NCBI GenBank assembly: GCA_016794525.1
Contig: JAEUJY010000095.1
Span: 1 to 64,000 of the forward strand
Direction of reading: 5' to 3'
Origin: Myxococcales bacterium
GTDB lineage: Bacteria > Myxococcota_A > Polyangia > Haliangiales > Haliangiaceae
DNA: 64,000 bases
Of the stretch, positions 39,432 through 54,051 are shown piece by piece. The notes beneath the pieces are model-generated. The model was not told the DNA's origin. It made no database searches and worked only from the letters and a program-made list of their open reading frames with translations. The position numbers and the translations under genes were made by a program. Position 1 is the first letter of the stretch. Each line of letters opens with the position of its first letter.

Positions 39432-39437
39432 TACTGT
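39432..39437 (+). promoter_or_regulatory. -10-like TACTGT, leaderless discoidin-like gene
   Basis: TACTGT ends 7 nt before ATG 39445, which supports ATG 39445 over GTG 39436. Confidence 0.45.
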
Positions 39438-39444
39438 GGCCGCC

Positions 39445-40386
39445 ATGAAGCAGCTGTGGACATCGCTCTTGATCCTCGGCGCGGCCTGGCACAGCGCCGC
39501 CGCCAAGCCCGCCCCGCCCACGCAGCCCGCCGGCCGCGACGCGCTGACGCCGCTGCAGGTCACCGCCAGCTCGACGCTGGCCGCGCCCGACGATCGGTAC
39601 GCGCCGTGGCGCGTCGTCGACTACGACCAGAAGGACAACCTCGACAAGGCGCACCGGACCGCGTGGTGCGAGGGCGTGCCCGGCGCCGGCGTCGGCGAGT
39701 ACGTCGAGCTCGCCGGCCCCGACCTCGCGTTCAAGGTCATCTACGTGCAGCCCGGCGGCACCAAGCGCACGACCCGCGCCACCCGGTTCACGATCACCTG
39801 GTTCGACGCGCGCGGCACCGCCACCTCGCACGACCTGGCCAGCGACGACGGCGGCTGGATCTTCGAGGCCGACACCGAGCAGCGGGCGGTGAAGATCCGC
39901 GTCGCGATCGCCGAGGTCGCGCCGGGCAAGGTCGCCGACACCTGCATCGCCGACGTCATGCTGCAGAAGGGCGACGTCAGCTACCGCGAGCCGTGGCTCG
40001 ACGCCCCGGCGGCGATCGACGAGCTGGTCGCGTCGTTCAAGCCGATCTCGGCGGCGCTGACCTCGTGCCAGGCCGACGCGCTGGCGGCGGTCGTGCAGTT
40101 CCCGCTGGTCTACAAGGCCCAGCCGCGGACCCTCCGCGGCAAGGCGAAGTCGACGACGTACAAGGACGCGGCGGCGCTGGCCCGGGCCTGCGCCCAGCGC
40201 AAGGGGCCCGCGCCGATGACCGCGCTCACCGATCTGCGCAGCGTCCAGTCGGCGGCGCCGGGCCACGCGCTGCTCACCGACGGCGCGCAGCCGGGCGTCC
40301 GGGTCGCGCTGTACCACTTCGCCTACCGCGCCGGCGCCGCGGGCGCGCCGGGCGCGTGGCTGCTGTCCGCGGTCGACTGGCGCTAG
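39445..40386 (+). CDS. secreted discoidin-like (NADase-type glycan-binding) protein
   Basis: A Sec signal (MKQLWTSLLILGAAWHSAAA) is followed by a beta-sandwich with VTASSTLAAPDDRYAPWRVVDYDQKDNLD and TAWCEGVPGAGVGEYVEL, the pattern of F5/8-type and NADase-type glycan-binding domains. The second half is a small alpha/beta region without recognised motifs (LTSCQADALAAVVQFPLVYKA). Probably binds a glycan or cell-surface ligand in the periplasm or outside. Convergent with the FAD oxidoreductase. Confidence 0.78.
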   Translation: MKQLWTSLLILGAAWHSAAAKPAPPTQPAGRDALTPLQVTASSTLAAPDDRYAPWRVVDYDQKDNLDKAHRTAWCEGVPGAGVGEYVELAGPDLAFKVIYVQPGGTKRTTRATRFTITWFDARGTATSHDLASDDGGWIFEADTEQRAVKIRVAIAEVAPGKVADTCIADVMLQKGDVSYREPWLDAPAAIDELVASFKPISAALTSCQADALAAVVQFPLVYKAQPRTLRGKAKSTTYKDAAALARACAQRKGPAPMTALTDLRSVQSAAPGHALLTDGAQPGVRVALYHFAYRAGAAGAPGAWLLSAVDWR

Positions 40387-40396
40387 CCGAGCCGGG

Positions 40397-41434
40397 TCAC
40401 CGACCGTCGCGCAGCGCCGCCGCCGCCCGCACCCCGACCGCCGGGCTGGCGGTGACGCCGTGGCCACCGAGCCCGGCGACCCAGCACCACCACGGCACCC
40501 GCGCGTCCCAGCCGATCCGCGGCGGGCCGCCGCCGGCGTAGGTGCGCTGGCAGGCCCACGCGCGCTCGATCGTCAGGCCGCGCATCGCCGCCGGCAGCCG
40601 CGCGCGCAAGGTCGCGCGCACCGCGTCGTCGACCTCGACCTCGCCCGGCGCGCTGGTGGTGTGATCGCAGGCGCTGGCCAGCACGCCGCCGCCGTCGGGC
40701 CGCACGTACCACTCGTCGGCGTCGACGTTCCACACGATCGGCGCGGCGCCGAGATCGAGGCGCAGCGCGAACAGGTGGCGCTTCTTCGGCGTGAAGTCGG
40801 TGGCGGCGCCGACCAGCGCGCCCAGCGCCCCCGACCACGCGCCGCCGGCCGCGACCACGACGTCGGCGCGCAGCACGCCCTTGGTCGTGGTCAGCGCCGC
40901 GCGGCCGTCGTGGGCGATCGCCGTGACGCCGGCGTCGACCACGCAGCGCACGCCGCGCCGCCGGGCGCCGTCGACGAACCCGGCGGTCAGCGCGTCGAGA
41001 TCGACGCAGCCGTCGTCGGGGAACCACAGCCCGCCGCGATCGACCTCGAGGCCCGGCCAGCGCGCCGTCACCTCGGCCGCCGTGATCGCGGCGCAGCGGA
41101 TCTGGTGGCGGGCCGCGGCGGCGGCCAGCGGCGCCGGATCGCCGGTCAGCAGCACCGCGCCGCGATCGTCGACCAGCGGCCGCGCGGTGAACCCGGGCGG
41201 CGGCGAACGCAGCCACGCCGCGCCGGCCGCGGTCAGCGCGGTCCAGGCGTCGTCCTCGGCCAGCGCCCGGCACATCGCGGCGTTGTGGCTCGACGCGTGG
41301 CCGCACAGCCGCGAGTCGCGCTCGAGGACGACCACGCCGTCGACGCCGGCGTCGGCCAGCGCCCACGCGGTGGCCAGGCCGGCGAAGCCGCCGCCGATGA
41401 TGGCGTAGCGGGCGTCGGCGGGGAGGGCGTCCAC
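40397..41434 (-). CDS. FAD-dependent oxidoreductase (DAO family)
   Basis: A 345-residue D-amino-acid-oxidase/glycine-oxidase type flavoprotein. AIIGGGFAGLATAWALADAG is the GxGxxG dinucleotide site followed by VVVLERDSRLCGHASSHNAAMC. AADVVVAAGGAWSG marks the second FAD-contact strand, and RTYAGGGPPRIGWD..VPWWCWVAGLGGHGVTASPA the C-terminal FAD loop. It oxidises an amine or amino acid; the substrate is not clear. Start GTG 41434. Confidence 0.9.
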   Translation of the reverse strand: MDALPADARYAIIGGGFAGLATAWALADAGVDGVVVLERDSRLCGHASSHNAAMCRALAEDDAWTALTAAGAAWLRSPPPGFTARPLVDDRGAVLLTGDPAPLAAAAARHQIRCAAITAAEVTARWPGLEVDRGGLWFPDDGCVDLDALTAGFVDGARRRGVRCVVDAGVTAIAHDGRAALTTTKGVLRADVVVAAGGAWSGALGALVGAATDFTPKKRHLFALRLDLGAAPIVWNVDADEWYVRPDGGGVLASACDHTTSAPGEVEVDDAVRATLRARLPAAMRGLTIERAWACQRTYAGGGPPRIGWDARVPWWCWVAGLGGHGVTASPAVGVRAAAALRDGR

Positions 41435-41508
41435 GCGGCGGCTTTACCGCGCCCGTGACAGCACGGCAACGGCCGCGGCCCGACGTTGAACGGCCGCCGC
41501 CGACCACG

Positions 41509-41521: not shown

Positions 41522-42124
41522 GTGCCTCACCGCCTCGCGCTCTTGCTGGCGGCGATCCCGATCGCCGCGTGCACCTCGGACCTCGAGCCCGAGATCTGTC
41601 CCACGGTCGGCGTGGGCGACCTGGTCGTCACCGAGGTGCGCGGCAACCAGAGCGGCACCTACGGCGAGTGGATCGAGCTGTTCAACGCCGGCGGCGCGTC
41701 GGTCGACCTGCGTGGCCTGCACCTCGGCCTGCGCAAGCTCAACGGCGCCGATCCCGACCTGTTGATCGTGCGGGCGTCGACCACCGTCGCCGCCGGCGAC
41801 TACGTCGTGCTGGGCGCGTTCCCCGACGCCCAGCGCCCGGCCCACGTCGACTACGGCTGGCACCCCGACGGCCTCAACTCCGACGGCAGCATCTCGCACC
41901 TGCCCGACGGCGGCGCGCTCGACGTCACCGCCTGCGGCGTCACGATCGACCGCGTCGTGTGGAACGACCTGCCGGCCGACGGCACCTACTCGCTCGGCCT
42001 GGCGCCACCCGACGCCGCCGGCAACGACGTGATGGCGGCGTGGTGCGCCGATACCATCGACGACGACCCCGTCGCTCCCGGGCTGCCCGGGACTCCAGGC
42101 GTGAGCAACCACCCATGTCCTTGA
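41522..42124 (+). CDS. lamin-tail-domain lipoprotein (200 aa)
   Basis: The signal ends AIPIAACTSD, a lipobox. The mature part is one lamin-tail (LTD) immunoglobulin-like domain: VGDLVVTEVRGN..GTYGEWIELFNAGGASVDLRGLHLGL, then AGDYVVLGA and a closing GTPGVSN motif. LTDs are non-enzymatic binding modules often linked to secreted nucleases and hydrolases. GTG 42115-side overlap: its last 10 bp overlap the nuclease start. First gene of a five-gene surface operon. Confidence 0.87.
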   Translation: MPHRLALLLAAIPIAACTSDLEPEICPTVGVGDLVVTEVRGNQSGTYGEWIELFNAGGASVDLRGLHLGLRKLNGADPDLLIVRASTTVAAGDYVVLGAFPDAQRPAHVDYGWHPDGLNSDGSISHLPDGGALDVTACGVTIDRVVWNDLPADGTYSLGLAPPDAAGNDVMAAWCADTIDDDPVAPGLPGTPGVSNHPCP

Positions 42125-43194
42125 TCCGCCGCTCCATCCTCGTGGGGTCGCTGCTCGCCGCGCTGGCGACCGCGGCCGCGTGTCAGCCCCCCGGCGCCGC
42201 GCGTTACAGCCGGCAGCAGGCCCAGGCCTCGCTCAAGAAGCTGGGCACGCCGGGCCTGATCCTCGGCGAGTTCCACCTCACCAAGGTGACCGACGGCGAC
42301 ACCATCCGGGTCGACGGCCTCGACAGCTCGCTGCGCCTGATCGGCCTCGACGCCGAGGAGACGTTCAAGAACGAGCCCGATCGCCGCGGCGCCGAGGGCG
42401 ACTTCGACGCCTACCTGCGCGAGAAGCGCGGCGGCGGCAAGCACCCGGTCAAGGCCGCGACCCCGCTCGGCGAGGAGGCCAAGAACTTCGCCAAGCAGTT
42501 CTTCCACGACCACGAGAAGGTGCGCATCGAGCGCGACGTGCCCGGCGAGATCCGCGATCGCTACGACCGCTACCTCGCCTACGTGTTCGCCGAGATCGAC
42601 GGCAAGTGGGTCAACTACAACGTCGAGTGCGTGCGCGCCGGCATGTCGCCGTACTTCATGAAGTACGGCTACTCGCAGCGGTTCCACGCCGACTTCGTCG
42701 CCGCCGAGGCCGAGGCCAAGGCCGCCAAGCGCGGCATCTGGGACCCGACCAAGCAGCACTACCCCGACTACGACGAGCGGGCGAAGTGGTGGACCGCCCG
42801 CGCCGAGTTCATCGCGCGCTACCAGCCGCAGATCGACAACGACCCCAACTTCATCGTGCTGACCCACTGGGACGCGATGAAGAAGATCGAGGATCGGGTC
42901 GGGCAGGAGGTGGCGATCCTGGCCACCGTCGGCGACATCAAGCTCGGCGACCGCGGGCCGACCAAGGTGATGCTGTCGCGCAAGATGTTCGGCGACTTCC
43001 CGCTGGTGTTCTTCGACAAGGACGTCTTCGCGTCGACCGGCGTCGCCGCGTTCAAGGGCGAGTTCATCGTCGCCAAGGGCGTCGTGACGACCTACACCAA
43101 CAAGTACACGAAGAAGAAGCAGTTCCAGATCCAGGTCGACCGCGCCGGCCAGCTGCTGCTCCCCGAAATTCCCGGCCTGACCCCGCCGCAGTGA
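42115..43194 (+). CDS. staphylococcal-nuclease-like lipoprotein with C-terminal OB-like domain (359 aa)
   Basis: The signal has lipobox TAAACQPP. The SNase domain (about 50-230) keeps KVTDGDTIRV, LRLIGLDAEE (the Arg/Asp/Glu that bind Ca2+ and attack the phosphate) and RYDRYLAYVF (second catalytic Arg). A long Lys-rich insertion (about 85-125) separates the catalytic halves. The last 110 residues (VGQEVAILATVGDIKLG..., FKGEFIVAKGVVTTY) resemble an OB-fold, a nucleic-acid-binding module. It should cut DNA or RNA outside the inner membrane. It starts 10 bp inside the lamin-tail gene. Confidence 0.9.
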   Translation: MSLIRRSILVGSLLAALATAAACQPPGAARYSRQQAQASLKKLGTPGLILGEFHLTKVTDGDTIRVDGLDSSLRLIGLDAEETFKNEPDRRGAEGDFDAYLREKRGGGKHPVKAATPLGEEAKNFAKQFFHDHEKVRIERDVPGEIRDRYDRYLAYVFAEIDGKWVNYNVECVRAGMSPYFMKYGYSQRFHADFVAAEAEAKAAKRGIWDPTKQHYPDYDERAKWWTARAEFIARYQPQIDNDPNFIVLTHWDAMKKIEDRVGQEVAILATVGDIKLGDRGPTKVMLSRKMFGDFPLVFFDKDVFASTGVAAFKGEFIVAKGVVTTYTNKYTKKKQFQIQVDRAGQLLLPEIPGLTPPQ

Positions 43195-43267
43195 CTCCGG
43201 TCATTGTCGCGCGGCCGCCCCCTGGTCGCGCACCCACCGTCACGGCTCCCGTGCGATGATGCGATCC

Positions 43268-44995
43268 ATGCGCCGACTCGCCTGGTCCGACTTGCGCCTC
43301 TTGACCGCGGTGGCCGCCGCCGGTGGCCTCGCCGCCTGCGGGCCGAGCGACGACACGGCCGACTGCACCGGCCTGGTGGCCGGCACGCTGGTGGTGTCCG
43401 AGGTGCAGGCCGACTTCGACGCGCCCTCGGGCTCGAGCGGCGCCGACACCGGCCACGAGTGGTTCGAGATCTACAACGCGTCGACGTCGCCGGTCGAGCT
43501 GGCCGGCGTGCAGGTCGAGCACATGCGCCCGAGCGAGACCGTCGGCAAGACCCACACGCTGCGCGCCGTCACGATCCCGGCCAACGGCTACCTCGTGCTC
43601 GGCAACGTCGTGCCCGAGGCGGCCCCGGCCCACGTCGACTACGGCTACGGCGCCGACCTCGGCGACCTGTACAACGCCGACGGCGGCAAGCTGAAGCTGT
43701 CGTGCGGCGGCGTCGTCATCGACGAGGCGATCTACGACGGCGTCGAGCCCGGCCACACCCGCACGCTCGACGGCAAGCAGGCGCCCGACTACCAGACCAA
43801 CGACAGCCAGGCCGCGTGGTGCAACGCCGCCGAGGATCCCGCCGCCGAGTACGAGCCGACCAACTTCGGCACGCCGGGCGCGCCCAACCAGGAGTGCATG
43901 AACGTCGTCCCCGGCCAGTGCGACGACGGTGGCTCGATGCGGGCGACGGTGCCGCCGGCGCCCGGCGACCTGACGATCACCGAGGTCATGCCGGATCCGG
44001 CGGCCGCGGCCGACGCCACCGCCGAGTGGATCGAGGTGCGGGTCAACCGCGACGTCGACCTCAACGACCTCGGCGTCGCCGGCGCCAGCGGCACGCCGGT
44101 CGTGCTGTCGTCCCAGACCTGCGTGCGCGCCACCGCCGGCACCTACCTGGTGTTCGCGCGGTCGACCGACATGGCGATGAACGGCGGCCTGCCGCGCGTC
44201 GACGGCGGCGTCGTGTCGCTGACCAACACCAACGGCACGGTGCGCCTGCTGATGGGCGCGACCGAGCTCGACGCCATGACGTGGACCAGCGTGCGGGCCG
44301 GCAAGTCGCTGCAGCTGTCGGCCGGGCTCACCGCGCCCGCCGACAACGACGTCCCGGCCAACCTGTGCGACGGCAACGCCGCCTACGGCGCCGGCGACCA
44401 GGGCACCCCGGGCGCCGCCAACCGCGACTGCGGCGGCTCGATGGCCGGCATGTGCCTGGACACCGGCACCGGCTCGATGCGGCCGATCGTCAAGCCGACC
44501 GCCGGCCAGCTCGTGATCGATGAGTGGATGCCTGATCCCAACCACGTCAGCGACGCCACCGGCGAGTGGTTCGAGGTCAAGGCGCTGGCCGACGTCGACC
44601 TCAACGGCCTGCAGGCCGGCACCACCACGCTCGGCGCGGCGCCGCTGGTCCCGGCCGCGGGCAACTGCGTCCGCCTGGCCACCGGCGGCTACGCGGTGTT
44701 CGCCCGGACCGCGATGAACAACGGCCTGCCGTCGACGCTGACCGTCGCCGGCACGTTCACGTTCGGCCTCACCAACGGCGCGTCGAGCTTCCAGATCGGC
44801 ATCGACGGCGCCAACCTCGCCACCGCCACCTGGGCCGCGACCTCGGCGGTCGGCGCGTCGTGGATGCTCGACACCGACGGCACGCAGTGCACCGCCGCCG
44901 CCGCCAACGTCGCGACCTACGCCAACGGCGCGGTCACGCCCGGCACCGATCGCGGCACGCCGGGCCTGATCAACAGCCCGCCCGAGTGCCCGTGA
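43268..44995 (+). CDS. triple lamin-tail-domain lipoprotein (575 aa)
   Basis: The signal ends AGGLAACGPS. Three lamin-tail domains follow at about 30-205, 220-375 and 395-570, each with an E-W-(F/I)-E strand (GHEWFEIYN, AEWIEVRVN, GEWFEVKAL) and each closing with GTPGAPNQEC, GTPGAANRDC or GTPGLINSPPEC. A Cys-rich linker with GSMR joins them (CDDGGSMRA, DTGTGSMRP). ATG 43268 is preferred; ATG 43256 is possible. Probably a surface scaffold whose domains present substrate or partners to the flanking nucleases. Confidence 0.88.
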   Translation: MRRLAWSDLRLLTAVAAAGGLAACGPSDDTADCTGLVAGTLVVSEVQADFDAPSGSSGADTGHEWFEIYNASTSPVELAGVQVEHMRPSETVGKTHTLRAVTIPANGYLVLGNVVPEAAPAHVDYGYGADLGDLYNADGGKLKLSCGGVVIDEAIYDGVEPGHTRTLDGKQAPDYQTNDSQAAWCNAAEDPAAEYEPTNFGTPGAPNQECMNVVPGQCDDGGSMRATVPPAPGDLTITEVMPDPAAAADATAEWIEVRVNRDVDLNDLGVAGASGTPVVLSSQTCVRATAGTYLVFARSTDMAMNGGLPRVDGGVVSLTNTNGTVRLLMGATELDAMTWTSVRAGKSLQLSAGLTAPADNDVPANLCDGNAAYGAGDQGTPGAANRDCGGSMAGMCLDTGTGSMRPIVKPTAGQLVIDEWMPDPNHVSDATGEWFEVKALADVDLNGLQAGTTTLGAAPLVPAAGNCVRLATGGYAVFARTAMNNGLPSTLTVAGTFTFGLTNGASSFQIGIDGANLATATWAATSAVGASWMLDTDGTQCTAAAANVATYANGAVTPGTDRGTPGLINSPPECP

Positions 44996-45474
44996 AGCTG
45001 GCGGTGGTGGCGGCCGCCGCGGCCGCGGCGCTGGCCGCGTGCGGGGGCTCCGACGCGACCTGCGGGCCCACGTCGGGGGTGGTCCAGCGCGCGATCGACG
45101 GCGACACGATCGAGCTGACCACCGGCGAGCGCATCCGCTACCTGCTGGTCGACACGCCGGAGTCGGTCAACGGCGCCGGCGACTGCTACGGCGAGAACGC
45201 CCACCAGCTCAACAGCGATCTGGTCGCCGGCAAGACCGTGCAGCTCGCCTACGACGAGGCCGGCTGCACCGATCGCTTCGACCGCCTGCTGGCCTACGTC
45301 TCGGTCGACGGCGTCGAGGTCAACCGGCTGCTGGTCGAGCGCGGCTACGCCTGCGCGCTGTACATCCCCCCGGCCGGGACCGACCGCCACGTCGAGTTCG
45401 AAAACCTCGAGGCCGCGGCCCGCGCGGCCGGCCGCGGAATGTGGTCTGCTTGCACCGTGGTGACATGCGATTGA
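44992..45474 (+). CDS. small thermonuclease lipoprotein (160 aa)
   Basis: GTG 44992 overlaps the previous stop (GTGA). Lipobox ALAACGGS. A compact SNase domain with AIDGDTIELTTGERIRYLLVDTPES and CTDRFDRLLAYVSVDGVEVNRLLVERGYA keeps the catalytic Arg-Asp-Glu-Arg set. Three extra Cys pairs probably form disulfides outside the cell. Compared with the nuclease at 42115 it lacks the insertion and OB-like domain, so the two likely differ in substrate or position. Confidence 0.9.
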   Translation: MKLAVVAAAAAAALAACGGSDATCGPTSGVVQRAIDGDTIELTTGERIRYLLVDTPESVNGAGDCYGENAHQLNSDLVAGKTVQLAYDEAGCTDRFDRLLAYVSVDGVEVNRLLVERGYACALYIPPAGTDRHVEFENLEAAARAAGRGMWSACTVVTCD

Positions 45475-47654
45475 TGCGCGCGCTGGCCGCGGCCGTCGCG
45501 CTGACCCTCCCGACGGTGGCGATCGCCGCCCCCTACGAGGCGTTCATCGACGTCGAGTCGCAGGAGGACCTCGACGACCTGTACGCCACCGGCGACATCT
45601 CGACCGAGACCCACGACGCGCTGACCGAGCTGCTGGCGCGCGGCGTCGATCTCGATCGGGCCAGCCGCGAGGAGCTGTACTCGCTGCCCAACCTCACCTA
45701 CGACGAGGTCGACGCGATCCTCGCGTACCGCGAGACCCAGCGCTTCATCGCCGACCCCGCCGACCTGGTCGCGGCCGGCGCGATCACCGAGCAGAAGCTC
45801 CTGGCGATCTCGGCGTTCGTGGTGCTGCGCGATCGCGCCCGCGGCCAGTACGCGCCGCGCGGCTGGGTCCGGGCCCAGACGCGCGCTGCCCAGGGCGACG
45901 AGGTGCTGCCGCCGATCGGGGCGCGCGCGCGGGTGACGTTCGGGCGACCGATCACGCTCGGCGCCTCGGCCACCCTGGCGCGCACCGGGATCACCGACGT
46001 CTCCTGGGATCCCAACCGCGGCGGGTTCCTCGCCGAGGCGTCCGGGACGCGGCCCAGCCTCGCCAAGCTGTACGGTCGCTACCGCGGCGATCACATCGAT
46101 GTCATCGCCGGCACCTACCGGGTGGGCTTCGATCAGCGCCTGACCTTCGACACCGCCAGCGACCCGACGCCCAACGGGATCTACCTGGACGATCAAACCA
46201 CCTCGGACAGCGAGTTGGCGCGCACCTGTCGGCAGACCACGGGCGAGCTGACCAGCACGCCGTGCCCGATCAACGTCGCCCCGGTCGAGTACGGGACCCG
46301 CGACTTCAGCTGGACCGAAGGGCTGCTTGGGCTCGCCGCCGGTAGCGACCACCTGGCGCTCGGGGCCGGCTACTTGCAGGCCTACGGCTGGGGTAGCTAC
46401 CAGCCGCGCAACGTGTACCAGTACAAGTTGCTGGATCGCGCCGCGTGCGCGGATCCGTATGGTGGCGAGCCGGGGTGCTCGGGGCCGCCAGTCTACGATC
46501 GTCCCGACGGCGACGTGCTCAGCCCGGCCGCGGCGTGGTCGTATCAGACGCTGCCGAACGTCCTTGCCGAGGCCTTGGTCGGCGGCCACCTCGCGTACCA
46601 CGCCGCTCGCCGCGACTACGTCGGCGTCACCGCCTATGGCGCGACGACGCGGTGGTTGATCGAGACGCCCGACGACGTCCAGCTTGATCTGCAAGACTGG
46701 GATCGCCGCCCGATGGGCGGCCGGTATGGCGCGATCGGCGTGAGCGCGGGCATGGGCCGCGGCATCTACGATGGTTTCCTCGAGGTGACCCGCAGCTTCG
46801 ATCGGCAGCCCGACGCGCCCGCCGACGCTCGCGATGGCGGCGGTGGCGTGGCGGCCATCGGGCGGCTGACCCGGTCGCTGCGTCGGCGCGAGCTCGAGTT
46901 GTCGGTGCGCTACTACGACGTCGACTTCGACAATCCTTATGCCGGACCGATCTCGCAAGACGATCAGCTCGACGGCGCCCGGGCCCGTGGTGAGCACGGC
47001 GTGCGCGCCCGCTACACCGCGACGCATGGCGTGGCGTCGATCCGCGCGTCGCTCGACGTGTGGCGGCACTACGTGACCGCGCTGCGTGCGTACCTTCCAC
47101 GGGCCGAGGCGACGGCGCATCTCGACGTCCAGGGCTCGGACCAGCTGGCCTACGGCCTCTGGCTCGACTACACCGATCGCGATCTGCGTGATGGTGGCTA
47201 TGGATCGTGTTTCGAGAACGCGACCGAGCCCGACGAAGACGCGGAGGAGGTGGCGTGCACCGGGATGCGCCTCAAGACCACCGCGCGCGTGCGGCTCGAC
47301 GCGTCGCGCGCGCTCATGGTGCGTGGCCAGCTGGTGCACAAGTACCAAGACGATCCGAGCTACACGGACGCGCGGCGCCACGACGTGAGCGCGATCGTCA
47401 ACACGACGTGGCGGCGGTCGAAGGACCTTCGGCTGCTCGGGCGCGTGAAGTACTTGAACGAGGACGTTGCGTCGAACGCACGCCTGGAGCAGTCGCTGCT
47501 GGTGTCCGGTGAGGTTCGGACGCGGACCCGGGTCAAGGACCAGCTGACGGCGCGTGCCGAGCTGTTCGTGTGGCTCGACGAGCGTCGGTCCACCCAGCTG
47601 CGATCGCCGTCGCCCGAGCTGCGGGTGAACCTCAGCTACGTCGCCAAGTTCTGA
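45465..47654 (+). CDS. ComEA-like helix-hairpin-helix plus outer-membrane barrel protein (729 aa)
   Basis: ATG 45465 lies inside the end of the nuclease gene; ATG 45474 is also possible. After a Sec signal (to TVAIAAP), residues 60-118 match the helix-hairpin-helix pair of ComEA (VDLDRASREELYSLPNLTYDEVDAILAYRE...DLVAAGAITEQKL), a DNA-binding unit. The remaining 600 residues alternate strands and turns with aromatic-rich ends and finish PSPELRVNLSYVAKF, typical of an outer-membrane beta-barrel ending in Phe. A periplasmic DNA-binding plug on a barrel is suggested. Codon use in the last 1.5 kb is less GC-saturated than upstream. Confidence 0.82.
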   Translation: MRLMRALAAAVALTLPTVAIAAPYEAFIDVESQEDLDDLYATGDISTETHDALTELLARGVDLDRASREELYSLPNLTYDEVDAILAYRETQRFIADPADLVAAGAITEQKLLAISAFVVLRDRARGQYAPRGWVRAQTRAAQGDEVLPPIGARARVTFGRPITLGASATLARTGITDVSWDPNRGGFLAEASGTRPSLAKLYGRYRGDHIDVIAGTYRVGFDQRLTFDTASDPTPNGIYLDDQTTSDSELARTCRQTTGELTSTPCPINVAPVEYGTRDFSWTEGLLGLAAGSDHLALGAGYLQAYGWGSYQPRNVYQYKLLDRAACADPYGGEPGCSGPPVYDRPDGDVLSPAAAWSYQTLPNVLAEALVGGHLAYHAARRDYVGVTAYGATTRWLIETPDDVQLDLQDWDRRPMGGRYGAIGVSAGMGRGIYDGFLEVTRSFDRQPDAPADARDGGGGVAAIGRLTRSLRRRELELSVRYYDVDFDNPYAGPISQDDQLDGARARGEHGVRARYTATHGVASIRASLDVWRHYVTALRAYLPRAEATAHLDVQGSDQLAYGLWLDYTDRDLRDGGYGSCFENATEPDEDAEEVACTGMRLKTTARVRLDASRALMVRGQLVHKYQDDPSYTDARRHDVSAIVNTTWRRSKDLRLLGRVKYLNEDVASNARLEQSLLVSGEVRTRTRVKDQLTARAELFVWLDERRSTQLRSPSPELRVNLSYVAKF

Positions 47655-47663
47655 CCGGCGCGT

Positions 47664-48437
47664 TCAACCGTCGAACGCGGTCGCCTGATCGCCGGGCTCC
47701 TGGAAGCCGCCGCTGCGGAACGTCAGCACCAGCGTGTCGCGGTGGCCGCGGCGCGCGTCGGTCGGGACGATCGGCGTCGACTCGTGGATGACGCGGGTGT
47801 CGTCGATCAGGATCGCGCTCCACGGCTCGCGCAGCGTGAAGCGGACGCCGCCCGGGCCGTCGGCCTCGAAGACGCGGGTCTCGCCGCCGCGGATCGCCTC
47901 GCGCGCCACCAGGATCACCGCGACGAAGTCGACGCCGTCGCGGTGGGCGCCCTCGGGCGTGGGCCGGCCGACGCCGCCCTCGGTGTCGATCCGGAACGGG
48001 TGGGCCTCGACGTAGAAGCGATCCTCGACCGGGCGGCGCACGCCGGCGAAGGTGCGCGCCAGGTGGACCAGCAGCTCGCGCCACGCCGGGTGGTGGACCA
48101 TGTGCTCGGCCAGCGGCTCGAACCAGCGCTCGATGCCGCCGTGCAGCGCGTTGTAGGTGGTCGACTGGTAGTGCGCGCGCGGCGGCACCGGCTCGACGCG
48201 GCCGACGCCCCCGGCGAGGTGGACGATCGCGCAGCCGTGGCGGCGCGACCGGTAGCGGCCGCCGTCGCGCAGGTACGCATCCGCCGGCAGGTCGTCCCAG
48301 CACGCCGCGAGCTCGGGCAGCGCCGCGGTGCCGATCAGCCCGGCCAGCGCCGGCGCGGTCAGCGTGGCGAAGCCCTGGGTCGTCAGGCGCGCCCGCGCGG
48401 CGGCGTCGTCGAGGTCGCGATCGAGGTCGAGCTGCAC
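47664..48437 (-). CDS. 2-oxoglutarate/Fe(II) dioxygenase family protein (257 aa)
   Basis: Resembles the 2OG-Fe dioxygenases that include bacterial L-isoleucine hydroxylases (PF10014-like). GAHRDGVDFVAVILV gives the H-x-D iron pair, RVIHESTPI the distal His, and RRGHRDTLVLTF the Arg that holds 2-oxoglutarate. It would hydroxylate a free amino acid or similar small molecule. GTG 48437 has TAGCAT 6 nt upstream. Convergent with the barrel gene. Confidence 0.87.
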   Translation of the reverse strand: MQLDLDRDLDDAAARARLTTQGFATLTAPALAGLIGTAALPELAACWDDLPADAYLRDGGRYRSRRHGCAIVHLAGGVGRVEPVPPRAHYQSTTYNALHGGIERWFEPLAEHMVHHPAWRELLVHLARTFAGVRRPVEDRFYVEAHPFRIDTEGGVGRPTPEGAHRDGVDFVAVILVAREAIRGGETRVFEADGPGGVRFTLREPWSAILIDDTRVIHESTPIVPTDARRGHRDTLVLTFRSGGFQEPGDQATAFDG

Positions 48438-49137: not shown

Positions 49138-49219
49138 GCTTGCGGCACTTCGTCGCGCCCGGCGGCGGCGCGCGCCGGCGGGACTACGTTGGCGATGCAG
49201 CCCCGCCGCGGAGGTCTCC

Positions 49220-49831
49220 ATGTCCGATCCAGCGCGTCGTCCCGTGATCGTGGTCGCGGTCGATCTGTCCGAGTACGCCGAGGCGGTGTTGACCCACGCC
49301 TTCGATCAGGCCGTGCGCCAGGGCCGCGCCGACCTGCACGTGCTCGCGGTGGTGTCCGACGAGCCGCGCCGCTGGCACCGGCCCACCGCCGCCGAGCTCG
49401 AGGAGCGCGAGGAGGAGACCAAGGCCGCGCTGGCCGCGCTGGTGCCGCGCGTGCTCGACGACGCCGTGCCCGAGGCCGCGCGCCGCGACTGGCGGGTGCG
49501 GTTGCACGTGCGGCGCGGCCACCCCGACGAGCAGATCGTCGAGCTGGCCGAGGAGGTCGTCGCCGACCTGCTGGTGATCGGCCGCTACGGCCACGCGTCG
49601 CGCCGCCGCCTCGGCTCGACCGCCGATCGCGTGCTCGCGCAGGCCGAGTGTCCGGTGCTGGTGGTGGCGGGCGTGCGCCAGCGCGACGAGCAGTCGGCGC
49701 AGTGCCCGGCCTGCGTGGCGGTGCGCGCCGCCAGCGACGGCGAGCGGTGGTTCTGCGACGCGCACCTCGGCGGGCGAGCCAGCTCGAGCGTCGCGCTGCT
49801 GGGTGGCAACTTCGCCCGCGGCGGCTGGTAG
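49220..49831 (+). CDS. universal stress protein (UspA family) with Cys-containing tail
   Basis: [23 protein letters not shown] is the UspA N-terminal strand-helix; [36 protein letters not shown] is the C-terminal nucleotide loop, with only 7 residues between the second Gly and GS instead of the usual 9. The last 45 residues add CPACVAV...WFCDAHLGG, a possible small zinc site not found in classical UspA. Cytosolic stress-response ATP-binding protein. GGAGG precedes ATG 49220. Confidence 0.9.
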
Positions 49832-50005
49832 GCGCGCACCGCGGCTGGTCGCTGGCCGACCGTGTGGTGCCGGTCACGCGTGGGGCATGCGGCGTCTCGC
49901 CCGACGACATCGTCCGACGGGGCCGCCATGACGCGCCGCCCCGTCGCCAACCGGCCGCAACTCGGGCCTCCCTCTCGGGCACGCCGCTTGATACAACGGA
50001 GGTCC

Positions 50006-50533
50006 ATGCGCTTCCCCTTGCTCGTGTGCGCTCTCGCCACCGCCTGCGGCGGGTCGGACACCGACTGGTTTCCCTCCGACCTCGACAAGGACGCGGTCAT
50101 CGCGACCGCTGGCGAGGCCGCGGCGGCCAAGGCGTGCCAGGCGTTCGAGGACTACCTCTACGCGCAGTACCGCGACTCGCTGCTGGTCGAGGCGGTGTGC
50201 ACGGCGATCGGCATCGACCAGAGCGCCGACGCGGCGACCTGCGCCGACTACGTCCAGGGCTGCGTCGACAACCCGCCCGCCTCGGTGATGTCGGTGATCA
50301 CCAGCCTGGTCGACGCCACCGGCTGCGGCGGGCTCGACTACCAGCCCACCGGCTGCGGCAAGACGCTGGCCGACCTGGCCGCGTGCCTCGACGCCGCCGA
50401 GGACGAGCTCAAGAACCTGCGCCTGCGGCTCGAGTGCTCCGCCGCGGGCCAGCCGCTGCCGCCCGACGCGCTGATGATCACCACGCCGGCGGCGTGCACG
50501 TCGCTCGAGCTGGCCTGCCCGACGCCGGGCTGA
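50006..50533 (+). CDS. Cys-rich lipoprotein (175 aa)
   Basis: [21 protein letters not shown] is a lipoprotein signal. The mature part has many Cys spaced through a helical body ([50 protein letters not shown]) and should be held together by disulfides outside the cell. AACGGAGG is a good ribosome binding site at 6 nt. Family not recognised. The 174 bp before it hold no gene. Confidence 0.78.
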
Positions 50534-50541
50534 GTTCCAGC

Positions 50542-50559
50542 GGGCTCGTCGGCGAGCCC
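50542..50559. terminator. bidirectional terminator-like hairpin
   Basis: GGGCTCG-TCGG-CGAGCCC is a perfect 7-bp stem with a 4-nt loop in the 65-bp gap between two convergent genes. It works the same on either strand and is followed by a second GC stem (CCCC-GGGG). No U-tract. Confidence 0.5.
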
Positions 50560-50598
50560 CCTCGGCGGGGTTCCCCAGGACGCGAGACGCGCGGCGCG

Positions 50599-52752
50599 TT
50601 ACCGCAGCGGCGGCGGCGCCGGCTCCTCGGCGGGCAGGCCGAGATCCTCGTCGAGCGACGGCTGCGCCGCCTCCTCCTCGAGGTGCAGGTGGATCGGCTT
50701 CTTGACGATCGCGATCGTCTCGGCGAGGCCGTCGAGGCCGTAGGTCGGCACCTCGATCGCGTAGGCGGCGTCGCCGACGCAGGCGACGAACTCCGACGGC
50801 AGCGTCGTGCCGCCGAAGCGGGCCGCGTGGACCTCGCCGCGGGCGATCTCGAGGGTGACCTCGAGCGTGCCGGTGAAGCGCGGCTTGCCGCGCAGCGCCG
50901 TCGCGTAGCAGGCCCGCACCGCCGGCCACAGCTGGTACTTGATGAGGTACTTGTACGTGGTGTCGGGCAGGTTGTCGTCGGCGCCGCTGGCCGCGCTCGG
51001 CGCCGGCGCGTCGGCCTCGACGACGTCGAGCGCCTCGCTGCCGGCCGGCGGCGTGCGGGTGAACGCGCCGGTGGTGCGGGCCAGGTCGACCCGCGGGCCG
51101 GCGCCCGGCGCCGCCGGGTCGATCACCGCCAGCGCCGACAGCGGCGTGACCGTCGCGGTCTGCCGCGCCAGCGCCAGCACGTCGCTGGGATCCAGCGTCG
51201 CGGTGTCGCGGGCCACGGCGCCGCGGCCCGCCGCCGCCACCGCGATCGCCGCGCTGGCCTTGGGCAGCGCCACCGCGGTCGCGCCGATCGCGTCGGGGCC
51301 GCGCTGCGCCGTCAGCCGCACCCGGCGGGCCGCCGCGCCGGCGTGGGCGACGTGGGCGATCACGCCGCTGCCCGGGCCGAGCTCGCTCGGCAGGTCGAGC
51401 GCCATCACCTCGTCGTCGACGACCACGCCGAGATCGCGCAGCGGCAGGTCGTCGGCGAGCTGGCGCGGCAGCGTCGCCAGGCGATCGTCGACCTCGCTGG
51501 TGCGCAGCGCGAACACCTTGCCGTGGAACGCGGCCACCAGCGGATCGAGCACCGCGCGATCGGGCATCGGCGCGCCGGCGACGACGGGCACGATCACGTC
51601 GAGCGTCGTCAGGTTCACCGGCATCTGCGCCGCGCCGAGCAGATCCGAGCCGGTCACGCGCGTCGACAGGATCGCGTCGGTGATCACCACCACCCGCGCC
51701 GGGTCGTCGCCGATCGTCGTCGCTGCCAGGTTGAGCGCCTCGCCCAGCTCGGTGCCGCCGCCCGGCGTCGCCGTCGCCAGCGCGTCCTTGACCCGCCGCC
51801 GCGCCTCGCGCGCCGCGGTCCAGCTGCCCAGCCCGCGCCGCGCGGTGCGATCGAACGTGATCAGCTCGACCGGCGTGGCAGCCGGCGCCGCCGCGATCAG
51901 CGCGTCGGCGATCGCCGCCGCCGCGGCGCGCCCGTCGGCGCCCATGCTGCGGGTGGTGTCGACGATCAGCAGCAGCCGCGGCGGCGCGAACGCGGCCGCG
52001 GCCTGGCGCGGCGGCAGGTACACGCCGATCGACGTCAGCGCGCGGCCGGCGCCCACCGCCGTCGAGTGGGTCGCCACCACCGGCCCGGCGCCGCGCCAGG
52101 TCGGCACCGCCTCGACGGCCAGCGCCCGCGCGTTGGCCACCGTCGCCTTGCCGCCGAGCGGCGCCACCGCCGCGCCGTTGATGAACGCCCGCACGAAGCG
52201 CTGCACGCCGGCCGCCGGCTTGGCGCGCACCGTGACCGCGCAGCGGGCCAGGCCCTCGGCGTCGCCGCGCGCCGGTGTCACCACCTGCAGCCGCCCGTCG
52301 CGGTAGGTGGCGGCCGCGCTCCAGCGCACGGTCAGGCGCGCCGCAGCGCCGGCGGTGACCGGGTACACCCGCGCCTCGTAGCTGTCGCCGTCGACGCCCG
52401 TGCCCAGCCACCGCACCAGGCCGCGATCCGGCGCCAGGCCCAGCCGATCGCGATCGGGCGTCGTCGTCGCCAGCGCCTCGGCCGACACCGCCACCGCGCC
52501 GGCCGCGGCGCCCTTGCCGATCGCGATGCGCGCGTCGGTCACCGCGGCGCCCGGCGGCAGCGCGAACTGGTAGGTCGCCTCGACCGGCGCGGCGTCGACG
52601 CCGAGCAGGTCGTGGGTCTCGGTGACCGTCGCGATCGGGCCGGCCAGCTCGACGGTGACGGCGCAGGCGGTCTCGCGGGCGCCGAGCAGGTCGGCGTGGG
52701 CGACGCCGGGCGCGGCGGCCAGGGCGAGCACGAGCAGCGGGCGGTGGGCCAT
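50599..52752 (-). CDS. secreted VIT and VWA domain protein (717 aa)
   Basis: A Sec signal (to GVAHADLL) is followed by a VIT domain ([35 protein letters not shown]), a linker, then a VWA domain with the metal-ion site [12 protein letters not shown] (DxTxS) and [12 protein letters not shown]. The C-terminal region ([34 protein letters not shown], then [12 protein letters not shown]) resembles the AgmX/PglI or TonB-like C-terminal module. Inter-alpha-trypsin-like proteins of this kind mediate protein binding at the cell surface. Divergent from the patatin gene. Confidence 0.87.
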
Positions 52753-52833
52753 GCGGTATCGACACCGCCGCCCCGGCGCGGTTTCACCTGCGGTGCGTGG
52801 ACAAGCCCCCGGCGCCCGCGAAACAATGGCGAC

Positions 52834-54051
52834 GTGGACGAAATACGCCGCGGGAAGGTCGGCTTCGTCTTGTCGGGCGGCGGTTCGCGCGGCGCCTACG
52901 AGGCCGGCATCATCCAGTACCTGCGCACCGATCTGGCCAAGCGGCTAGGGCGGCACGTGCCGATCGACATCGTCACCGGCACCAGCGTCGGCGCGATCAA
53001 CGCCGCGTTCCTGGCCTCGACGATGGAGGACCCGGCCGCGCAGTGCCGCCGGCTGATCGACGCGTGGCGGGCGCTGCGGATCGAGGAGCTGATCGGCCTG
53101 GGCGCGCGCGATCTGTGGCGCGCCACGACCCAGCTGTTCGGGCGCGACCCGCCGCCGCCGACGCCGGGCAGCTTCCGCTACGGCGGGCTGCTCGACACCA
53201 GCGGCCTCGAGCGGTTCGTCATCAAGAACATCCCGTGGACCGGCATCGAGCGGAACCTCAAGAGCGGCGCGCTCCACGCGATGTCGGTCTCGGCGACGCA
53301 CATCGCCACCGGCCACACCGTCGTGTTCGTCTCGGCCGCCGGGCCGGTGCCGACCGGCTGGAGCAAGGATCCGTTCGTGCGCCACCAGGCCGCGCGGATC
53401 GGGCCGCGCCACGTGCTGGCGTCGGCGGCGATCCCGCTGCTGTTCCCGTCGGTGAAGGTCGGCGACTCGTTCTACACCGACGGCGGCCTGCGCCAGAACA
53501 CGCCGATGTCGCCGGCGATCCGCCTGGGCGCCGACAAGATGCTGATGGTGTCGCTGCGCCACGTCGACGAGGTCGCGCCGCGCCAGCCCACCGTGCCCGA
53601 CGGCTTCCCGCGCCCGCTGTTCCTGGTCGGCAAGGCGCTCAACGCGCTGATGCTCGACCACACCGACTACGACCTCGACCGGATGAAGCGGGTCAACGCG
53701 ATCCTCGAGGCCGGCACCGCCGCGTTCGGTCCCGGCTTCGTCGACGTCATGAACGCCAACCTGGTCAAGCTGCGCGGCGCGCCGATCCGCCCGATCGCCG
53801 CGATGCACATCCGCCCGTCGGCCGACATCGGCGTGCTGGCGTCGGACTTCGTCAAGAGCGGCAAGCTGCTGGTGTCGAGCCCGGTGACCCGGCGCCTGAT
53901 CGAGCGCATGGCCGCCGGCGAGAGCGGCCGCGAGAACGACTTCCTGTCTTACCTGCTGTTCGACGGCAACTGGGCCAGCGAGCTGATCGAGCTGGGCCAC
54001 CGCGACGCCGCGGCCAAGGAAGAGGAGCTGGCGCGGTTCTTCATGGCGTGA
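52834..54051 (+). CDS. patatin-like phospholipase (405 aa)
   Basis: A serine acyl hydrolase: [17 protein letters not shown] (oxyanion loop), [13 protein letters not shown] (nucleophile elbow GTSVG) and [11 protein letters not shown] (catalytic Asp in DGG). It hydrolyses membrane lipids; there is no export signal, so it acts in the cytosol, on the inner membrane, or is secreted by another route. GTG 52834 is chosen because ATG 52826 is out of frame. Its last 11 bp overlap the convergent HTH-citrate-synthase gene. Confidence 0.9.

Follow-up and report, generated by a model that had tools for sequence, protein, structure and literature searches.

An outer-membrane barrel encoded with lamin-tail and nuclease lipoproteins, a conserved candidate unit for nucleic-acid breakdown at the envelope of Myxococcota

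What would a bacterium do with two nuclease lipoproteins and two lamin-tail-domain (LTD) lipoproteins that are encoded in one row with a large barrel protein? The locus raising this question is situated in a 64,000-nt stretch of a Myxococcales genome (the window, i.e. the whole stretch of DNA analysed), and comprises five co-directional ORFs, which follow each other in the order anticipated by the first-pass annotation: LTD, SNase-OB, triple-LTD, SNase and HhH-barrel. As the annotation had also stated, most junctions overlap (three out of four), with a 10-nt overlap, a 61-nt gap, a 4-nt overlap and a 10-nt overlap in gene order, and export signals are present on all five products, i.e. a lipobox on the first four, which was seen in most relatives as well, and a plain signal peptide on the barrel protein. 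The genes at both flanks are opposite in direction (40397–41434 and 47664–48437, reverse strand). LTD1 and SN2 start with GTG codons, TTG at 41486 being a possible alternative for LTD1, and a sigma-70 promoter scan gave no signal above chance.

Table 1. Positions in the window and supporting evidence of the module, its genes and their domains.
Feature	Position	Strand	Evidence
Five-gene module	41522–47654	+	
LTD1 (single lamin-tail-domain lipoprotein)	41522–42124	+	PF00932 38.0 bits (cut-off 34.3); lipobox IAAC; net charge about −19
SN1 (SNase lipoprotein, C-terminal OB-like domain)	42115–43194	+	PF00565 56.2 bits (cut-off 21); AF2 pLDDT 87.6
OB-like C-terminal domain of SN1	42844–43149	+	Strand order b-b-b-a-b-b in model; OB-family matches sub-threshold
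LTD array (lipoprotein, three lamin-tail domains)	43256–44995	+	PF00932 63.8 bits (cut-off 34.3); net charge about −40
SN2 (short SNase lipoprotein, slot directly upstream of barrel)	44992–45474	+	PF00565 68.7 bits (cut-off 21)
HhH-barrel protein (signal peptide, acidic HhH-like cap, 24-stranded outer-membrane barrel)	45465–47654	+	AF2 model
Degenerate acidic HhH region, residues 59–119	45639–45821	+	PF12836 22.1 bits, below cut-off 27; profile matches 8dss ComEA
24-stranded barrel, residues 131–728	45855–47648	+	DSSP of AF2 model; conservation

The SNase domains of SN1 and SN2 are the sole two of their kind in the 9.8 Mb genome, and both scored above the Pfam cut-off. The model of SN1 displays the SNase fold (Z 15.9, rmsd 2.1 over 133 residues), and the match list of a PDB structure search with this model was filled by SNase chains, while SN2 matched solved SNases with E-values of 1e-13 to 1e-14. 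The Arg, Asp and Glu residues expected of active nucleases were indeed kept (active-site Asp/Arg/Asp/Glu/Arg), nearly all of them invariant among relatives: D60, D62, R74, D79, E82 and R152 of SN1 in 50 sequences, and the catalytic residues of SN2 in 90 sequences, except for D40, which was Asp in 80 and Asn in 10. The OB domain that had been assigned to SN1 was recovered in part, as an OB-like strand order in the model, but Pfam OB matches were sub-threshold only, and the OB identity is put forward as plausible. SN1 has a net charge of +3. With the LTD proteins and the HhH both acidic, the nucleases are the only evident nucleic-acid binders of the module, SN1 possibly by means of its OB-like domain.

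Both LTD proteins exceeded the Pfam cut-off. In the LTD array, Pfam recognised two stretches and the family profile three, in support of its description as a triple-LTD lipoprotein; own-genome matches were located at 43382–43690 and 43955–44242. Because of their strongly acidic nature, the LTD proteins are not obvious DNA binders. Bacterial LTD domains are without an established role (PMC6085458). LTD together with a nuclease is a known theme of secreted nucleases, e.g. ExeM (PMC6085458). In ExeM of Shewanella and YhcR of Bacillus, LTD and/or OB-like parts are likewise combined with a nuclease domain outside the cytoplasm (PMC6085458), but within one secreted polypeptide (the nuclease of ExeM being EEP), whereas in the module they are divided among separate lipoproteins in a conserved gene cluster with an outer-membrane barrel, and the ExeM family NF033680 was matched with 12.2 versus 1300 bits.

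The C-terminal region of the fifth protein, annotated as a predicted outer-membrane barrel, modelled confidently as such (AF2 mean pLDDT 89.6, pTM 0.88), and the failure to form a barrel that would have spoken against the annotation did not arise. DSSP analysis of the model, counted by hand, gave 24 strands, connected by short turns on one side and, on the opposite side, by long loops that bear the conserved cysteines 255, 267, 328 and 338. Thus, a confident barrel, an even strand number, a signal peptide and a C-terminal aromatic residue (Phe or Tyr in 56 of 66 sequences) are all present. The best solved structural matches were the 24-stranded FimD/PapC chaperone-usher pores (Z about 15), yet identity was about 10%, no usher family was among the Pfam or NCBIfam matches, and pilus genes are absent from the five; the likeness is one of barrel size and topology. 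Specific homology to a solved barrel was rejected, the matches being generic by size (TM about 0.4). TonB receptors appeared only as generic barrel matches to the model, and no plug or receptor family of TonB-dependent receptors or SusC was found among Pfam or NCBIfam matches.

Preceding the barrel is the HhH-like cap, a combination reminiscent of Bacteroidota proteins in which HhH repeats are followed by a predicted barrel. In the genome scan, too, HHH_3 (PF12836) stayed under its cut-off (26.4 bits). A PDB query with just this one HhH segment yielded mainly chance TPR matches, and a family profile was needed to reach ComEA (8dss, E-value 9.7e-9), which is a remote relation. The first hairpin glycine is replaced by Asn in 62 of 66 relatives, and the second is Thr, Ser, Asp, Asn or Ala in all 66; in distant relatives, the hairpin is mostly G-x-T/S. 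Moreover, the net charge of the HhH region is −15 (family median −13), whereas the canonical ComEA HhH of the same genome has GVG/GFG hairpins and a net charge of +7. The first-pass reading of a ComEA-like DNA-binding unit was therefore rejected, since both the GxG hairpins and the basic charge have been lost: hairpin residues and charge speak against ComEA-type DNA binding, and what remains of the likeness is remote sequence homology of a segment that, in addition, is fused to a barrel.

With the barrel alone as query, 64 loci were gathered from Myxococcota, a predatory phylum. All five genes were present in 33 of these, and the LTD array adjoined the barrel gene on the same strand in 57. Synteny spans Kofleriaceae, Nannocystaceae and other Myxococcota, including the cultured genera Nannocystis, Plesiocystis, Enhygromyxa and Paraliomyxa, and the module genes were found adjacent rather than scattered in relatives, scattering being the second outcome that would have spoken against a common system. 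As the LTD array is beside the barrel at so many loci, and no other SNase domain exists in the genome, the grouping is far beyond chance. There is strong support for a unit that is encoded and inherited jointly, consisting of a 24-stranded outer-membrane barrel, an LTD-array lipoprotein and one or two nuclease lipoproteins; pairwise identities of SN1 and the barrel correlate (r = 0.84). No nuclease was recognised near the barrel at eight loci (L128, L159, L160, L165, L184, L196, L198, L206), and LTD genes only were seen at L103/L177 and L162, some of the contigs concerned being short. A conserved sixth gene was not supported, flanking families being common to at most 13 loci and apparently lineage-bound. 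Plasmid-borne spread was rejected, as a tblastn search of 72,556 plasmids with the barrel gave no match, and so was phage origin, as PHROGs gave none for the LTD and barrel proteins.

The most constant partner of the barrel is the LTD array and not the nucleases, which brings forward another explanation. Slam translocons are outer-membrane barrels with an N-terminal periplasmic part and a TPR cap, and are gene-linked to lipoproteins. Likewise, the barrel of the module could be a dedicated exporter or anchor through which lipoproteins, LTD and nuclease alike, reach the cell surface while nothing is imported: it is nearly always linked to lipoproteins, with the LTD array as the commonest partner even without SNase, its best structural matches, the ushers, are export channels, and client binding could be a task of the HhH cap. 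Slam has been reconstituted (PMC9090332). However, neither Slam (DUF560, in Pfam or NCBIfam) nor usher families were matched, the cap is HhH-like rather than TPR, the barrel differs from Slam in having 24 strands, and structural likeness among barrels of this size is generic; we consider such an exporter rather unlikely.

The location of the lipoproteins bears on a further alternative. In many Gram-negative bacteria, lipoproteins face the periplasm by default, and the lipoproteins of the module, previously assumed to be surface-exposed, could equally do so. From either side, the nucleases might constitute an envelope barrier that cuts phage or transforming DNA on entry. Two precedents agree with this, namely the PADLOC candidate defence protein C3a212 (SNc+LTD), in which SNase and LTD are associated, and the membrane nuclease SNIPE, which cuts phage DNA during injection (PMC13190303). 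Yet C3a212 is a single SNase+LTD chain, a full-length arrangement seen in none of the module proteins, and SN1 and SN2 match its SNase part only (positions 45–181 of 279), while SNIPE relies on an inner-membrane GIY-YIG enzyme. A barrier would require no giant barrel, and defence islands do not typically show the stable synteny and vertical inheritance that the module has throughout the phylum, making this explanation improbable.

Among 12 distant barrel loci lacking SNase, eight had a NucT/Nuc-type PLD protein directly upstream of the barrel gene, on the same strand and with the end of the PLD motif 142–188 nt before the barrel match. These PLD proteins often carry a lipobox, and the one checked matched Nuc (1byr) and NucT. 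At one further distant locus (L208), a ComEC-like MBL protein adjoins the LTD array. Because different nuclease folds fill one slot, we argue that nucleic-acid cleavage at the envelope is the core function. Of the dedicated system for binding and cutting nucleic acid first suggested, the cutting is further supported by the swap from SNase to PLD, but the ComEA-like DNA-binding unit is not supported. NucT of Helicobacter pylori, a membrane-associated endonuclease, is implicated in purine salvage from external DNA and in transformation, and is presented as an enzyme acting by itself, with neither an LTD nor a barrel partner (PMC5714352), whereas the module of the window uses SNase.

Natural transformation is another conceivable role, in which the barrel would receive DNA at the outer membrane by means of a ComEA-like arm, and incoming DNA would be processed by the nucleases. 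The distant relation between the HhH and ComEA, the ComEC-like neighbour at L208 and the modest effect of H. pylori NucT on transformation (PMC5714352) are in line with this role, but the HhH is acidic and devoid of hairpin glycines, and the genome has a canonical ComEA (C113) and ComEC (C161) at sites away from the module; transformation is hence a quite improbable function. An HhH protein of Riemerella is essential for transformation (PMC8459023); it was considered as a relative but not retained, its HhH being at 236–301 and its predicted location periplasmic.

The exchange of nuclease type at one spot points to an undescribed machine for nucleic-acid breakdown at the envelope, and no published description of a five-gene barrel/LTD/nuclease module was found in the literature searched. 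That the module is a conserved outer-membrane unit of Myxococcota by which nucleic acid from outside is degraded at the envelope has, in our estimate, about an even chance of being correct; counting against it are the barrel loci at which no nuclease was recognised, and the fact that the neighbourhood of the module was not seen to include a nucleoside transporter, a nucleotidase or a phosphate-starvation gene. In such a degradative unit, the acidic LTD array would dock on the barrel and keep the nucleases by its mouth, where extracellular DNA or RNA from prey, biofilm or the environment would be cut. The barrel may then admit oligonucleotides to the periplasm, where their nucleobases and phosphate would be salvaged, and the acidic HhH cap, facing the periplasm, would be a protein-contact or gating element and not a DNA-pulling ComEA. 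By analogy, the module may be likened to nutrient systems of surface lipoproteins and a barrel, or to H. pylori NucT in purine salvage. More tentatively, and as a possibility that we hold to be well short of even, the 24-stranded barrel with its acidic HhH cap could serve nucleic-acid acquisition, the LTD arrays recruiting nuclease lipoproteins that can stand in for one another (SNase, NucT-type PLD, perhaps ComEC-like MBL) and the cut DNA or RNA being imported without pili or TonB.

For this HhH-barrel family of Myxococcota, the easy annotation "ComEA-like" is herewith corrected. How nucleic acid, as a polymer or in fragments, passes the Gram-negative outer membrane to serve as food is poorly understood, and the module, if the acquisition proposal is true, would represent an outer-membrane nucleic-acid acquisition machine of a new kind. 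With a barrel/LTD/nuclease module that extends across the phylum and is available in cultured genera, both nucleic-acid uptake and the role of LTD domains become testable.

All five open reading frames described in the first-pass annotation, i.e. those for a lipoprotein with a lamin tail domain (LTD1), an SNase lipoprotein (SN1), a triple-LTD protein (LTD array), a second SNase lipoprotein (SN2) and a barrel protein with an N-terminal helix-hairpin-helix (HhH) cap, were present as described. The SN1 gene starts 10 nt inside the 3′ end of LTD1, 61 nt separate SN1 from the LTD array, and overlaps of 4 nt (GTGA) and 10 nt join the array to SN2 and SN2 to the barrel gene, the module being bounded on both sides by genes of opposite orientation. 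LTD and SNase domains scored above the Pfam cut-off in the module proteins, and HHH_3 in the last gene remained under it. The whole genome contains two SNase domains, both in the module.

Features of the module, of the window around it and of related loci
Feature	Position	Strand	Remarks
Discoidin-like protein	39436-40386	+	secreted; NADase-type discoidin-like (F5/8 C) domain; NF047619, PF25302 above cut-off
FAD oxidoreductase	40397-41434	-	bounds module
LTD1	41522-42124	+	
SN1	42115-43194	+	
LTD array	43256-44995	+	
SN2	44992-45474	+	
HhH-barrel	45465-47654	+	
2OG-Fe dioxygenase	47664-48437	-	bounds module
VIT/VWA-domain protein	50599-52752	-	signal peptide; universal stress protein gene (49220-49831) near
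Patatin-like phospholipase	~53000-54051	+	by eye (GTSVGA); end of ORF 49189-54051
NucT/Nuc-type PLD	L197:4700-5485	+	
NucT/Nuc-type PLD	L199:9576-10223	-	
NucT/Nuc-type PLD	L204:9765-10427	-	
NucT/Nuc-type PLD	L205:5297-5941	-	
NucT/Nuc-type PLD	L190:398-1165	+	
NucT/Nuc-type PLD	L201:4675-5262	-	
NucT/Nuc-type PLD	L202:6217-7335	+	
NucT/Nuc-type PLD	L192:9274-11310	-	
ComEC/Rec2-like MBL-fold protein	L208:12017-13456	+	
Extra SNase ORF	L122:8358-8930	-	between SN2 and barrel gene, opposite strand
Extra SNase ORF	L135:8364-8936	-	as L122
Extra SNase ORF	L124:1081-1608	-	as L122

The barrel was present in 50 of 144 related genomes and SN1 gave strong matches in a similar number, the two lying mostly near each other on one contig. 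By tblastn of 40 fetched regions, the order LTD1-SN1-LTD array-SN2-barrel recurred in many families of the class; exceptions were two blocks ca. 10 kb apart (G002), an inverted barrel (G020), a split across contigs (G018), lack of SN2 and LTD1 (family f16) and absence of SNase (G012). A barrel-only scan of named genomes gave 79 loci, carried by Kofleriaceae MAGs, Plesiocystis pacifica, Enhygromyxa salina, Nannocystis spp., Paraliomyxa, and MAGs labelled Polyangia, Polyangiaceae, Myxococcaceae and Anaeromyxobacter; because the barrel alone was the query, its neighbours were not selected for. Among the 64 loci flanked on one side by 5.5 kb or more, all five genes were co-directional within 7 kb in 33, the LTD array was present in 57, and none of the partners was counted in six, of which L120 does have the others close by but on the opposite strand. 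L168, L171, L172 and L185 have the barrel gene in first position, and flanking gene families were common to at most 13 loci. Pairwise identities of SN1 and barrel correlated (r = 0.84, 48 loci), as expected under joint vertical inheritance. The genes, domains, catalytic residues and synteny of the module are regarded as established. L103 and L177 (Nannocystineae MAG) carry LTD1, LTD array and barrel without SNase, and no nuclease ORF was seen between array and barrel.

Judged by sequence, SN1 and SN2 are both typical SNases. The SN1 model has the SNase fold (AF2 pLDDT 87.6; Z 15.9 to 1syb) with catalytic positions invariant in 50 sequences; in SN2, D19, D21, R35, E43 and R87 were invariant in 90 sequences, and position 40 was D in 80 and N in 10. 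The C-terminal domain of SN1 has an OB-like strand order with weak sequence support. On a heuristic test, a lipobox was called in 41/63 LTD arrays, 23/37 single LTDs, 37/54 SN1, 45/58 SN2 and 1/77 barrels, which supports lipid anchoring of four module proteins but does not bear on the membrane side they face. SN1 and SN2 both matched PADLOC model PDLC01096 (C3a212, "SNc+LTD", a candidate defence family), which combines in one chain the same two domains as the module.

The outer-membrane barrel proposed for the last protein was borne out by a confident AF2 model (66 input sequences, mean pLDDT 89.6, pTM 0.88). Reading its DSSP string by eye gives 24 long strands in residues 131-728; the turns are short on one face, and the loops on the opposite face are long and hold conserved cysteine pairs. 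Matches by Foldseek and VIA-align were outer-membrane barrels, the best being 24-stranded ushers (Z 15.4, rmsd 3.9 over 374 residues, 11% identity), followed by TonB receptors and MtrB. The barrel fold is predicted with confidence; these matches to the model show fold class and say nothing of function.

The cap had been read as a ComEA-like DNA-binding unit. Its profile matches ComEA (8dss, E 9.7e-9) as a remote relative, but this reading was rejected because the hairpin glycines and the basic charge are gone: the first glycine is N in 62 of 66 relatives, the second T, S, D, N or A, and the net charge is −15 (family median −13) versus +7 in the ComEA segment of the same genome. Relatives at a greater distance usually have the first glycine again but not the second. 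Elsewhere in the genome ComEC is encoded, and so is a canonical ComEA.

A phylum-wide profile search gave distant barrels, of which 20 regions were taken. The LTD array was found in 15 by family profile and in a 16th (L201) by Pfam, and SNase in eight. A Pfam scan of neighbouring ORFs picked out PLD-like proteins in the 12 regions lacking SNase, and in eight of these (genomes G317, G404, G152, G321, G164, G401, G224 and G266) a PLD domain was encoded immediately 5′ of the barrel gene and co-directional with it (listed by locus in the table), which is not attributed to chance since these genomes hold roughly 2-15 PLD domain hits each. In each of the eight, 142-188 nt lie between the end of the HKD motif and the barrel match, lipobox-like sequences were visible in at least four, and the one PLD protein compared matched Zucchini/MitoPLD, Nuc (1byr) and NucT. 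In L208, the LTD array beside a barrel gene is immediately followed by a ComEC/Rec2-like protein of MBL fold, which may be a third nuclease type in the module. This swap was found by looking, not predicted in advance, and refers to the loci listed. That nuclease folds unrelated to each other occupy the same slot is the strongest evidence for nucleic-acid cleavage as the task of the module.

Degradation of external nucleic acid for nutrients is the preferred reading, and its nearest functional precedents are NucT of H. pylori (PMC5714352) and, in Shewanella and Izemoplasma, secreted nucleases that contain LTDs (PMC6085458, PMC8289736); the competing explanations are competence, export of lipoproteins by the module, and a barrier to the entry of foreign DNA. 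Under nutrient degradation, the module proteins would form a complex, the lipoproteins would be surface-exposed, and import would proceed via the barrel. A literature search of partial coverage found no work combining lamin tail with Myxococcota and, for lamin tail with thermonuclease, only an unrelated archaeal proteomics paper. The parts belong to known families and the theme of LTD with secreted nuclease is already known; a demonstration that the barrel imports would make the module categorically new.
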